Assembly: GCA_028289425.1 (NCBI GenBank)
Contig: JANQPL010000008.1
Span: 94,613-158,612 of the forward strand
Reading direction: 5' to 3'
Source of the DNA: Alphaproteobacteria bacterium
Lineage (GTDB): Bacteria; Pseudomonadota; Alphaproteobacteria; JANQMY01
Length of the DNA: 64,000 nt
In this document: piece after piece, positions 41,095 to 50,965 of the stretch
Layout: every line of letters starts with the position of its first letter
How positions within the stretch are numbered: the stretch's first letter is position 1
Translations under genes and position numbers: made by a program
Notes under the pieces: generated by a model
Seen by the model: only the letters and a program-made list of their open reading frames with translations
What the model was told of the DNA's origin: nothing
Databases searched by the model: none

Positions 41095-44000
41095 TCACCT
41101 TCCTTCACAAAGACCTTGATATCGCACACAATCCGCCTGCAGAAAGATAGGTTTTCCCTCCGTATCTAGAAGGTTGCCTTCGCGGAGGCGTTCTTCTGCG
41201 AGGATGAGGTTCTCGCCACCACGATGGGACCAAACATCCCAAATTCTCACGTCACCGGCTGCCGTAAGGATTCGGTTTCCGTCCGCAGAGAATTGAAGGT
41301 GCGTACGGCTCTGCGGGTGTGCATTACCCTTGACCGTCTGCATCAGTACACCGGTTTGCAGATCCCAAACTGTTGCCAAATGTTCCGATGAGCCGGCAGC
41401 AATCCATCGACCGTAAGGAGAGAATGCAGCATCTGAAACTCGCGACGGATGACCCAAAAGGATGCGAACGAGGGCACCGGTCTCTGCGTCCCATAGCAGC
41501 GGCTTACTGTCGGTGTCGGTGAATCCCCCGAAAACATTTGGACCGCGTACTGTCATTATGTAAAGCCCATCCGGTGAAAAGCGCGCTAGGCCCATGTTAT
41601 GCCCGTCCTTCTTAAGCTCGCGGATGAGTTTTCCGGAAGCGCTGTCCCAAATCCTAGCAGATACCATTTCAGCGGTAACGATACGCGTCCCATCTGGCGA
41701 GAATTGTGCATCCCAAACAAATCTAAGTAGTTGTCCCTTCAGTCCAGTTATTATGTTGCCCGTCGGAACGTCTCGAATTTCCGCTCGATATTCTATACGA
41801 TCTAAATTGTCTCCCCCGTATAATCCATAGGATACGAAAAACCTGTCACCTTGCGGCGCAAAAATTGTTTCATAGACAAATGCCAGATCATCGATCGAAT
41901 GCAACAAGGCACCGGATTCTGCGTCCCAAACGCTTACGGCCTCATGTAGCGAGTCTTCACCCCTAACGCGAGAATTCGTCAAAATAAAAGACCCATCGGG
42001 CGAAAACTCCGCGTTTCGGACGTCTCCACCTTGGCGTTCCAGCACCTCTAACAGTTCGCCATTTTCTGCGTTCCAAATCTTCGCGGGCGCATCTTCAGAT
42101 ACGGTCACGACACGTTTGCCATTTGGCGAGAACTTTGCGTGTCGGACGAGGGCTGTCTCGCCCTGTAAGGAAGACAGCAAATCGCCGGTGTTGGAATCCC
42201 AGATACGCGGAGGGTCCTGGCTTTGCTCGTTGATTGCGGGAACAGTCAGCAGCCGGCTACCATCCTGCGACAGCTCAGCGTGAAGAACAGCGCCTTCAAA
42301 CTTGCGTAGAAGTGGGCCCTGATCTGGCTCCCACATTCTAACGGTATCTCTGCCCATTGTGATAATTCGACTGTCACCTGGCAAAAAGGAGGCGGCATAG
42401 ACCAATCCATCATGTCTGTGAAATTCATGCAGGAGACTCTGTGTTTCAGAATCCCAGATTTCGATGCGTTTGCGCTCCGAACGCGGTACCCCATAATCGG
42501 ACGCAATAACGACTATACGCGCGCCATCGTGCGAAAACTCGGCAGAATCGAAATCTGACTCATCATCTCGTCTTTTAATCGTGTGGAAAAGAACTCCCGT
42601 ATACCCGTCCCGAACTCTCAAAGCGGATGGATGCACCGTCATCAACCGGGTGGCATCAGGAGAAAAAGCAACATCGATGATTTGTTCATCGTATTCAATG
42701 GTTTGAACTCGGGTTCCAGTCTTCGCGTTCCAGATCCACAACTGTTTGTCATAATAGGCAACGACACTTGTCCCATCGGGCGAAAACAGTGATTCAACGA
42801 TCACGTTTTGTGGGCCCTGTAGCGTGTGGACAAGCTCACCAGAATCCACATCCCAGACTTTTGGAAAGAAGTCTGTTTCCTCAGTGGCGCTCTCTTCTTC
42901 AGCGTAGTCAATATACGTGACTATGCGCGTACTGTTTGGCGACAGGACCCCCTCAATGTCTAGACCATTTCCAGTTACAATTTCGCCCAGCTCTAGGATG
43001 AGGGAACCATCTCCCAGATCCCAGACACACACGGTTTGATTTCCATATTCGGTAAGTATGCGGTTTCCATCTGTGGAGAATTCCGCGCGGCTTACATCCG
43101 AATTGGGACCTTTTAACGTGTGGATAAGGGACCCAGTTTCTACATCCCAAACGCGCGTAGTAGTATCCGATGCGGTAAACATCAATTGGCCATCCGCTGA
43201 AAAATCAAGATCTCTAATGTTGTCCTCGTGCCCCGTGAGCTCGTGCATGAGAGCACCGGTTGCCAGTTCGAATATCCGAACGATCCGATCACCAGACTCG
43301 GTAGCATACCAACGTGCGCTGGCAACGTGTGCGCCATTCGCGGAGATTACCGAACGTGGTCCGTCTTCGAGTCGAAACCGGTACCGCTCGGTGTTGTAAA
43401 TTAACGACTGTATCAACAGGCTTTGGCTCTGAATGGATTCTGGATCAGTCGGCAACTCGTCTCGCTCTTTTGCTTCCGATGGAAATCCTGAAAGAACAAT
43501 CTGCATTGCCAATGCGTAGTCGCCTTTTCGATAGGCATCGCCAGCCCATTCCCGATGCCTCGACAATCGCCGCAGTTCGGACAACAGGAAGGGCACAGGA
43601 CGCATAAGGCCAGCGATATGTTCGTTGTCTTCTGCAATTGAACCGATGTATTGGCCCCAATTCGAAGGCGTGCGGGTAAAGATGCGTTTGTCGCCCAGAT
43701 AATGCAGGCCCACCACGTAATCGCCTGTCATAGAAAGAATGGGTGCGCCGGAGCTTCCCGGCAGGGTGTCGCACACATGCTCAAACGTTCGCACACGGTC
43801 GGGATCGGCATATTCCGAGGCCCGGCAGTCATAGGCGGTCAACACCAGCGGATAGTCGAGCGGATGGTGCACCATGTACAATCGATGGTTTGGCTCAAGC
43901 TTACGGATGGGCGATAGATAGAGGCGTTCGGGCCGCAAATCTTCTTGAATTTCGTCCAGGTCGCCGAAATCCACATGCAGCAGCGCGTAGTCGAGCTTGT

Positions 44001-44592
44001 CGTCGACACCTTCTGTATACGCACCATTCCTCCATTCCGCAGGAAAAACGTACAAATTCTCCCGCGCATCATTTTCGTCGCGATAGCCAAGGACAAATTC
44101 TACTTTGTGAACGCTGTTCAGTTGTGCATCCGAGTTCGGCCGGAAACAATGTTGTGCCGTAAGCAAAGTGGTGGGTGCGTAATTGGGATCGGAAATGACG
44201 GAAGCAGTGCAGCGCGTCACCGGACCGTTATTGTCATTCCATTGGATCTGCAGCGATCCGACGGATTTGGCGGCGCGTGTCCAGCCGAAGGTTACGTCAT
44301 AGGTTTCCAACGGCTCGAACGATTGTTGGTTTTCTTCATATTTGCGGACAAAGAGGCTGGAGCCCGAGGATTGGTTCTGCCCCACCTTGCCGGCGCCGAG
44401 AGTCTCGGCGTCATAAGTCACGTTAGGTTCGGGCAGCAGCACATCCGCCAGCGGTTTCAGAAAGGGCAGCTCGCCCACATAGCTCAGTGTGCGCGGGTCG
44501 TTGATGGCCACATTGTAGAGCGTGATGCCCATCACGCTGCCGACCACCACCACACTCAGCAAATAGAAAAACCGCCCCACCGCGCCAATCAT
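41095..44592 (-). CDS. Membrane-anchored trypsin-like serine protease with double WD40 propeller
   Basis: A 1165-residue protein. Residues 8-28 form one transmembrane anchor. Residues about 105-325 are a chymotrypsin-fold protease: His148 in TLLTAQHCF, Asp201 in KLDYALLHVD and Ser281 in LPGSSGAPILS form a full catalytic triad; Cys128 and Cys149 sit where trypsin has its His-loop disulfide. Residues about 430-1120 hold 15-16 WD40-type repeats (for example TRVWDVETG, ARIWDSASG, ATVWDLQTG), enough for two seven- or eight-blade propellers. The anchor implies the protease and propellers are periplasmic. WD40 domains bind proteins, so substrate recognition or a scaffold role is plausible. No neighbour suggests a pathway. 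No frameshift was seen. Confidence 0.9.
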   Translation of the reverse strand: MIGAVGRFFYLLSVVVVGSVMGITLYNVAINDPRTLSYVGELPFLKPLADVLLPEPNVTYDAETLGAGKVGQNQSSGSSLFVRKYEENQQSFEPLETYDVTFGWTRAAKSVGSLQIQWNDNNGPVTRCTASVISDPNYAPTTLLTAQHCFRPNSDAQLNSVHKVEFVLGYRDENDARENLYVFPAEWRNGAYTEGVDDKLDYALLHVDFGDLDEIQEDLRPERLYLSPIRKLEPNHRLYMVHHPLDYPLVLTAYDCRASEYADPDRVRTFEHVCDTLPGSSGAPILSMTGDYVVGLHYLGDKRIFTRTPSNWGQYIGSIAEDNEHIAGLMRPVPFLLSELRRLSRHREWAGDAYRKGDYALAMQIVLSGFPSEAKERDELPTDPESIQSQSLLIQSLIYNTERYRFRLEDGPRSVISANGAHVASARWYATESGDRIVRIFELATGALMHELTGHEDNIRDLDFSADGQLMFTASDTTTRVWDVETGSLIHTLKGPNSDVSRAEFSTDGNRILTEYGNQTVCVWDLGDGSLILELGEIVTGNGLDIEGVLSPNSTRIVTYIDYAEEESATEETDFFPKVWDVDSGELVHTLQGPQNVIVESLFSPDGTSVVAYYDKQLWIWNAKTGTRVQTIEYDEQIIDVAFSPDATRLMTVHPSALRVRDGYTGVLFHTIKRRDDESDFDSAEFSHDGARIVVIASDYGVPRSERKRIEIWDSETQSLLHEFHRHDGLVYAASFLPGDSRIITMGRDTVRMWEPDQGPLLRKFEGAVLHAELSQDGSRLLTVPAINEQSQDPPRIWDSNTGDLLSSLQGETALVRHAKFSPNGKRVVTVSEDAPAKIWNAENGELLEVLERQGGDVRNAEFSPDGSFILTNSRVRGEDSLHEAVSVWDAESGALLHSIDDLAFVYETIFAPQGDRFFVSYGLYGGDNLDRIEYRAEIRDVPTGNIITGLKGQLLRFVWDAQFSPDGTRIVTAEMVSARIWDSASGKLIRELKKDGHNMGLARFSPDGLYIMTVRGPNVFGGFTDTDSKPLLWDAETGALVRILLGHPSRVSDAAFSPYGRWIAAGSSEHLATVWDLQTGVLMQTVKGNAHPQSRTHLQFSADGNRILTAAGDVRIWDVWSHRGGENLILAEERLREGNLLDTEGKPIFLQADCVRYQGLCEGR

Positions 44593-44789: not shown

Positions 44790-44916
44790 GCCTGCCTGCG
44801 CGAGGCCAAAGCTTCGCCCTGCGGGCCATAGCCCTTCGGGCGACGGGTCGTTCGGCAAAGGCAGGCCGCGCCCGCTAACGCGGGCGCGCGATGACACTGC
44901 GGACAAAGCCGATGTG

Positions 44917-45055: not shown

Positions 45056-45208
45056 TTGGATGAACCCCATGCACCCATCTTTGTTGGGTGCATCGCCGGC
45101 CCGCTCCCCCTCCCAACCACCCGGATACGTTACCCTGGCGGGTGGTTGGGAGGGGGAGCGGGATGGCCAGGTGTTCAAACATTGGATGAACCCCATGCAC
45201 CCATCTTT
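45056..45208. repeat. 27-bp direct repeats flanking a 23-bp-stem hairpin
   Basis: A 27-bp sequence starting TTGGATGAACCCCATGCACC occurs at 45056-45082 and again, identical, at 45182-45208. Between them lies a perfect 23-bp inverted repeat (45100-45122 with 45140-45162, 17-nt loop) made of C-rich and G-rich arms. A further 8-bp stem, ATGCACCC/GGGTGCAT, overlaps the first repeat (45069-45093). The direct repeats may be duplications from insertion of the palindromic unit. Confidence 0.7.
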
Positions 45209-49864: not shown

Positions 49865-50965
49865 TTAACCGTACGCGAACTTTGCGACCTCTTCGGTAAA
49901 CAAGGCCGTTTGCTCGGTGAGCTTATCGCCTGCCGTCAGCAATCCGCCACCGATGAGCAGCATCACGTCGGGCCCATAGAAGTCGAGCATTTCCGGCACC
50001 CGGTCGACGGTCATGCCACCCGCCGGGATCGGCACACAGGGCGCAACGCCGAAATCGTCCGACAGCGCCGCCCGCGCCAACTGTTGACACGTGTCCGGCG
50101 AATAACCGAACCGGCCGCCGTGATTGGGGAAGATGGCGGCGTCCGCTCCCATGAGCCGAAAAATCTTGCCCAACAAGAGCGGCGGCAGAATGCGCGACGC
50201 GCCGGCCATGGCCGGATGCGCCATAAACGCAATGTCCGGATTCTCGCGCGACAGCTGCCGGAAGGTAGAAAGACCATTCACCATGGGCGCGACCAGCACC
50301 GTATCGATCCCGTAGGCGCGTGCTTGCTCCACTTGATGGCGCAGCTGATCCAGATGCCCCGACAGGCTGGGTACATATTTGGTCTTCCCACCCGACTGGG
50401 CATTGGCCGTGGCGATGGCGTCACCACACGCGCTCAAGCGGTCCGCGAACGGACTATAGGATTGATCCGCAAGCCCATGATCGTCTTTGATGAAATCAAG
50501 GCCGCCCATGGCCATTTGATGGGCGATCTTACCGAGCCCTTTTGGCGGCAGCCCTTGTGGTTTCAGGGCCGAACAGGTCATGCCACGCCCGTCCGCACCG
50601 CAACGGTCGCGCCAGCCTTGCAGCCCCTGGTTCGGACCGCCAAATATCGAGATGACGTCTTCGGGAAACTCCACGTCCGCCAACACCACATCCGGATGGA
50701 TCGAGGTATTGCCGAACAGCATGTTCATCAATTGGCCGGGATCGACCCCGACCGTATCGGCGGCAAGGTCGATGGCGACCCTGAAGCCGCCGGCCTCACG
50801 CTCGGAAATCTCTGCCACCTGCCCAACAATGTCGGACAGCACGCGCGCATCCGTAATGGCGGAAACGGGCATTTCCACGCTTTGCTCCACAGCGATCGTG
50901 TGCGCCCGCGCTTCAATGTCGCCTGCCGCGCTCTCGATGTGGTAAATCGCCCTAATTCTTGACAT
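49865..50965 (-). CDS. RuBisCO-like protein (form IV RLP)
   Basis: A 366-residue form IV RuBisCO homologue, not a carboxylase. The lysine of loop 1 of the barrel is kept (MTCSALKPQGLPPKG, K135), and the carbamylated-lysine region reads GGLDFIKDDHGLADQSY with K160, D161, D162 but His163 where RuBisCO has the metal-binding Glu. AHPAMAG and IFPNHGGRFGY follow. The N-terminal domain is short. RLPs catalyse enolisation, isomerisation or decarboxylation in methionine salvage, apiose and related pathways. The cupin gene follows. An alternative activity cannot be read from sequence; the subgroup needs a tree. Confidence 0.88.
   Translation of the reverse strand: MSRIRAIYHIESAAGDIEARAHTIAVEQSVEMPVSAITDARVLSDIVGQVAEISEREAGGFRVAIDLAADTVGVDPGQLMNMLFGNTSIHPDVVLADVEFPEDVISIFGGPNQGLQGWRDRCGADGRGMTCSALKPQGLPPKGLGKIAHQMAMGGLDFIKDDHGLADQSYSPFADRLSACGDAIATANAQSGGKTKYVPSLSGHLDQLRHQVEQARAYGIDTVLVAPMVNGLSTFRQLSRENPDIAFMAHPAMAGASRILPPLLLGKIFRLMGADAAIFPNHGGRFGYSPDTCQQLARAALSDDFGVAPCVPIPAGGMTVDRVPEMLDFYGPDVMLLIGGGLLTAGDKLTEQTALFTEEVAKFAYG

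Follow-up and report, generated by a model that had tools for sequence, protein, structure and literature searches.

The window, that is, the whole analysed stretch of 64,000 nt, carries on its minus strand (41095-44592) a complete and intact coding sequence with an ATG start, the open reading frame confirming the chain length of 1165 residues given in an earlier note on this DNA. Direct reading of the sequence reveals a Shine-Dalgarno-like AAAGGGGG upstream of the ATG (44606-44599, minus strand); a convincing promoter or terminator was not found for the gene. The gene is real, intact and duplicated, and its product represents an unusual combination of known parts, namely a tethered glutamyl endopeptidase-type protease and two WD40 propellers (all features described below lie on the minus strand). 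Neighbouring genes encode alpha/beta hydrolases, a GST, a glucose/sorbosone dehydrogenase, a RuBisCO-like protein, malic enzyme and glutamate synthase. Among these metabolic genes, the protease-WD40 gene appears to stand alone, with neighbours giving no hint of its role and no defence genes seen among them. PADLOC gave no convincing defence match but only a weak match to a repeat model via the WD40 part, and no match for the paralogue described below. The protease part has a GC3 of 0.63 and the WD40 part one of 0.50, compared to a mean of 0.68 (SD 0.05) for 30 ORFs of the window. The low GC3 of the WD40 part is suggestive of horizontal transfer, although the composition of the repeats could explain it as well.

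Several other features of the region were observed. The frame at 49865-50965 (minus strand) is RuBisCO large-chain-like (E 2e-22) and probably encodes a RuBisCO-like protein. In the intergenic DNA upstream of the protease-WD40 gene, a 77-bp element (44790-44867) is found at seven other genome sites with 87-96% identity and resembles a dispersed repeat of palindromic or REP/MITE type; further pieces of 31-45 bp also recur. In addition, two exact 27-nt copies 126 nt apart (45056-45208) flank a 29-nt inverted repeat (45095-45123/45139-45167) in apparently non-coding DNA.

Protease domain and S1 pocket

The protease domain (about residues 106-325; 43618..44277) is assigned as V8-like from a Pfam Trypsin_2 match (residues 137-296, E 4e-10, above cut-off) and a profile match to the glutamyl endopeptidase 1p3c. 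The complete His-Asp-Ser triad, on whose conservation the earlier note had made its reading depend, is present with His148 (44149..44151) in the motif TAQHC, Asp201 (43990..43992) in LDYAL and Ser281 (43750..43752) in DTLPGSSGAP, and the three residues are invariant in all eight aligned proteases, each bearing a Trypsin_2 match in Pfam and six coming from other genomes. Invariant in these eight sequences are also Cys128, Cys149, Cys256, Cys274, the H-CDT-G-SG block, Thr276 and His297. The preceding N-terminal extension (residues 29-105; 44278..44508) contains an FEP-Y motif common to most of the protease subfamily.

Among solved chains, the best match for a profile of the eight-member subfamily is the Bacillus intermedius glutamyl endopeptidase 1p3c (E 1e-15), followed by many Glu-specific and V8-type enzymes, whereas an HtrA chain is absent from the best 60 matches. 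With the V8-type glutamyl endopeptidases of MEROPS S1B (1p3c and Staphylococcus V8, 1qy6), the domain shares the chymotrypsin fold, the triad, the DTxxGxSG motif with Thr190, and His213. In contrast to these small, soluble and secreted enzymes, however, it is membrane-tethered and bears two cysteine pairs and two propellers. V8-type enzymes usually need a free processed N-terminus, whereas the N-terminus of the present protein is tethered. The residues equivalent to those of the glutamyl endopeptidase S1 pocket were assigned by alignment and the 1p3c profile match: Thr276 (43765..43767) corresponds to position 190 when counted back from the nucleophile, and His297 (43702..43704) aligns with His213 of 1p3c. 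His213 and Ser/Thr190 have been described as mandatory in glutamyl endopeptidases (PMC5508998). This signature is not automatic, as a more distant protease in the same genome (L097:1553-2773) possesses Thr190 but not His213. Cleavage after Glu or Asp is thus strongly predicted, but it has to be read as a prediction because Gln-specific enzymes share His213, which does not itself recognize the charge (PMC5508998). Hence, the trypsin-like fold assigned in the earlier note holds, while trypsin-like specificity probably does not, as the S1 pocket has the residues of a glutamyl endopeptidase. The fold itself is assigned from the profile matches, since a single-sequence model of the full-length chain was unusable (pLDDT 35).

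These results bear on the previous proposal of a periplasmic quality-control protease, which would play a DegS/HtrA-like role with the propellers holding misfolded substrates. A membrane anchor followed by a periplasmic serine protease is the layout of DegS, the present protein resembles DegS/HtrA in combining an anchor with a periplasmic protease of chymotrypsin fold, and propellers can bind peptides. However, the nearest solved relatives are glutamyl endopeptidases and not HtrA, the S1 pocket and the subfamily are different, and residues 1-404 match only Trypsin families in Pfam, with no PDZ, NTPase, TIR or caspase domain, the remainder of the chain being WD40. Moreover, the distribution is unlike that of a housekeeping factor, because the one same-genus genome searched gave no match and the fusion was found only in its own genome among those sampled; in this genome, its nearest counterparts are associated with WD40/caspase proteins. 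The quality-control role is therefore abandoned here as unlikely.

Membrane anchor, propellers and linker

In line with the single N-terminal anchor claimed before, one hydrophobic segment at about residues 8-28 (44509..44571), kept in position in the paralogue, reaches a Kyte-Doolittle window value of up to 2.04, while nothing else in the chain exceeds 1.2. It lacks an A-x-A cleavage motif and is read as an uncleaved signal anchor with N-in, C-out orientation, the flanking charge bias being slight. This orientation is supported by the lone N-terminal segment, by Cys128/Cys149, which correspond in position to the classical 42-58 disulfide of chymotrypsin, and by the exported appearance of the relatives. 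The latter start with apparently cleavable export signals (by eye), and the related protease at the C12 locus starts with MRRRQFL, resembling a twin-arginine signal (by eye). Six cysteines in plausible pairs, 128/149, 256/274 and 1155/1162, are all conserved in the paralogue, where they are the only ones; the last pair lies in the C-terminal tail, which together with the stop codon occupies 41095..41217. These conserved cysteines and the exported-looking homologues agree with the earlier placement of both protease and propellers outside the cytoplasm, and such an envelope location is strongly indicated, as the class relatives look exported. Six exported-looking, Alphaproteobacteria-type proteases of the subfamily (L042, L043, L044, L050, L051, and L053) share the protease domain, the N-terminal EP motif and the four cysteines with the present protein, but differ in their apparently cleavable signals and in that WD40 is replaced by TPR, a beta-helix or another partner, or no partner is present.

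The C-terminal part shows a Pfam WD40 match with E 7e-46, and WD40-type matches span about residues 420-1120. With a profile built from eight of the protein's own WD40 units combined with sequence reading, 16 units were located at about 427-1120, so that the WD40 propellers of the earlier note stand but its count of about 15 repeats does not. A model of residues 405-1165, whose alignment took in WD40 sequences from loci L004, L005, L099, and L101-L104, is a WD40 beta-propeller throughout (mean pLDDT 72, pTM 0.54), in agreement with the double propeller proposed. The first propeller (about residues 415-725; 42418..43350) comprises 7 units according to repeat count and model, the modelled part preceding the second propeller showing 27 strands or about seven blades. 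For the second (about residues 726-1125; 41218..42417), the repeat count gives 9 units, whereas in the model the region of about 726-1122 aligns with single WD40 propellers, eight-bladed ones included. Its best structural match is ODA16 (5mzh; Z 31.7, rmsd 4.2, 339 aligned), and it also aligns with TBL1XR1 (4lg9; Z 28.4, rmsd 3.6, 303 aligned) and Tako8 (6y7n; Z 27.1, rmsd 3.0, 278 aligned). From repeat count and model together, the first propeller would have about 7 blades and the second 8 or 9. In a Foldseek search with the propeller model, the highly repetitive propeller 2ymu was the top match and Apaf-1 (3sfz) among the leaders, both likewise having two tandem WD40 propellers. This is shared fold only; in contrast to Apaf-1-type proteins, neither a caspase-recruitment nor an NTPase domain is present in this chain.

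The protease and the propellers are connected by a helical linker (about residues 326-414; 43351..43617) for which BLASTP found nothing, while a single hhalign comparison indicated a weak likeness to the linkers of TIR-TM-WD40 proteins (probability 52%, E 1.5e-4). Proteins of the latter type, with TIR recognized by eye, are found both in the class and in collections of viral contigs. As in the TIR-TM-WD40 and WD40-caspase proteins of bacterial conflict or signalling, WD40 propellers are joined to an effector, often together with a membrane segment; here, however, the effector is a serine protease that is predicted to lie on the outer side of the membrane together with the propellers. The chain also differs from STAND, TIR and caspase WD40 conflict proteins in lacking an NTPase, TIR or caspase domain.

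Related loci, distribution and proposed role

The same genome holds a full-length paralogue on contig C7 (1174 aa, GTG start) with the same whole layout, so that this layout is not due to chance. The paralogue keeps the catalytic triad, and its protease is 45% identical, compared to 33% identity for the linker, 31% for the tail and 27% for the propellers. Pfam matches to WD40 are far weaker in the paralogue. Local alignment scores for propellers, linker and tail are higher than those of all shuffles. Faster divergence of the propellers than of the protease is expected for a recognition part, but could also result from weak constraint. A further association is encoded on contig C12 (L097 1553-7488). 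There, a WD40-caspase gene (Peptidase_C14, E 1e-5, above cut-off) lies 1 nt in front of a gene for a V8-like protease, which an hhalign match to the subfamily profile (E 7e-17) places in the same subfamily. Hence, the two fusions and this gene pair amount to three protease-WD40 links in one genome. A third trypsin-fold gene at the C12 locus is divergent from the pair, and the locus might possibly encode a protease cascade. When the other genomes in a class sample of 240 were searched with the related protease of this locus, no match at E ≤ 1e-12 was obtained.

For assessing the distribution, a two-member profile was searched against 385 class genomes and 398 phylum genomes, and an eight-member profile against the same 385-genome class set and 216 genomes of another phylum. 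In about 740 sampled phylum genomes, the protease-WD40 fusion was found in its own genome only, and the eight-member profile did not find it in the 216 genomes of the other phylum. As the samples were drawn and incomplete and only some long frames were read, this rarity is a statement on the sample. WD40 is absent from the long V8-like frames read in other class genomes and in the second phylum (centre G744), which by eye carry amidase-like, endonuclease-like, Ig/dockerin-like or other parts. No protease relatives were found in viral contigs, a genome-contig scan matched WD40 proteins only, and among plasmid records there were three weak matches to the protease, one of them annotated as SEL1-repeat protein. 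In the literature searched, a glutamyl endopeptidase combined with WD40 was not described, but this is no proof that none has been reported elsewhere. Within the class, relatives are joined to TPR with a peptidoglycan-binding-like end, to beta-helix, to other partners or to none. This variety would suit a secreted nutritional or processing protease with propellers merely anchoring it to the cell surface or matrix. However, equipping a bulk protease with a membrane tether and two such large propellers would be costly, and the paralogue keeps the same plan, making such a function improbable.

We favour, with moderate confidence, an inner-membrane-anchored periplasmic endopeptidase of the V8/glutamyl endopeptidase type that is aimed or gated by its C-terminal double WD40 propeller. 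The domain make-up, the active-site and pocket residues and the paralogue are established at the level of sequence. Joining an anchored protease to two binding modules suggests that the enzyme probably brings its own platform for picking a target or trigger. The propellers would bind an envelope partner, which may be a substrate, part of an invader or a complex, and would thereby recruit substrates, or another copy of the protein, to the tethered enzyme for cleavage after acidic residues. Propeller gating and a role in envelope signalling or conflict and not in housekeeping are inferred. Coupling of protease and propellers in the whole-architecture paralogue and in the C12 gene pair argues for this explanation, whereas the lack of functional neighbours and of a convincing defence-model match, the tethered N-terminus, and the unusable model for the protease fold speak against it. 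If the propellers gate the protease, the protein would be a receptor-like protease of the bacterial envelope, compactly built as one chain; protease-based sensing in this compartment is known mainly from HtrA/DegS. It would then also carry the WD40-effector plan, known with TIR, caspase and STAND modules in the cytoplasm, over to the periplasm. With its predicted Glu/Asp cleavage and with three loci in a single genome, the proposal is directly testable.

A more specific function as envelope receptor in conflict or defence, with the propellers sensing a component of an invader or rival and the protease activating or destroying its target, is plausible but without support from gene context. The C12 gene pair, in which a WD40-caspase gene immediately precedes that of a related protease, and the similar linker of the TIR-TM-WD40 proteins from the class and viral contigs are consistent with this function. 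In addition, trypsin-like and caspase-like proteases are common effectors of conflict systems (PMC7159879, PMC8195603), and an S8 peptidase with C-terminal WD40 repeats has been reported beside one of these (PMC10907252). In contrast, defence neighbours and a convincing PADLOC match are lacking, the likeness of the linker is weak, and most described systems are cytoplasmic while this protease is outside, so that we consider the conflict receptor somewhat unlikely. Going further, glutamyl endopeptidases that are fused to WD40 propeller proteins, or whose genes follow those of such proteins directly, might form a small set of envelope receptor-proteases in this genome, sensing an extracytoplasmic invader or rival and thereby starting a proteolytic response outside the cytoplasm, at one locus with a caspase-like enzyme. 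This is quite unlikely, but if true would represent a periplasmic counterpart of the cytoplasmic WD40/STAND/caspase systems.

Other WD40 genes were observed as well. On contigs filed as viral, a STAND-WD40-like gene (L099 1670-5398) and a TIR-TM-WD40-like gene (L103 3035-4714) were recognized by eye. Both genus genomes encode a conserved anchored WD40 protein beside a carboxyltransferase gene (L007 5661-8138 and L061 3-2384); no caspase was seen in this protein, which is laid out like the C12 WD40-caspase protein.
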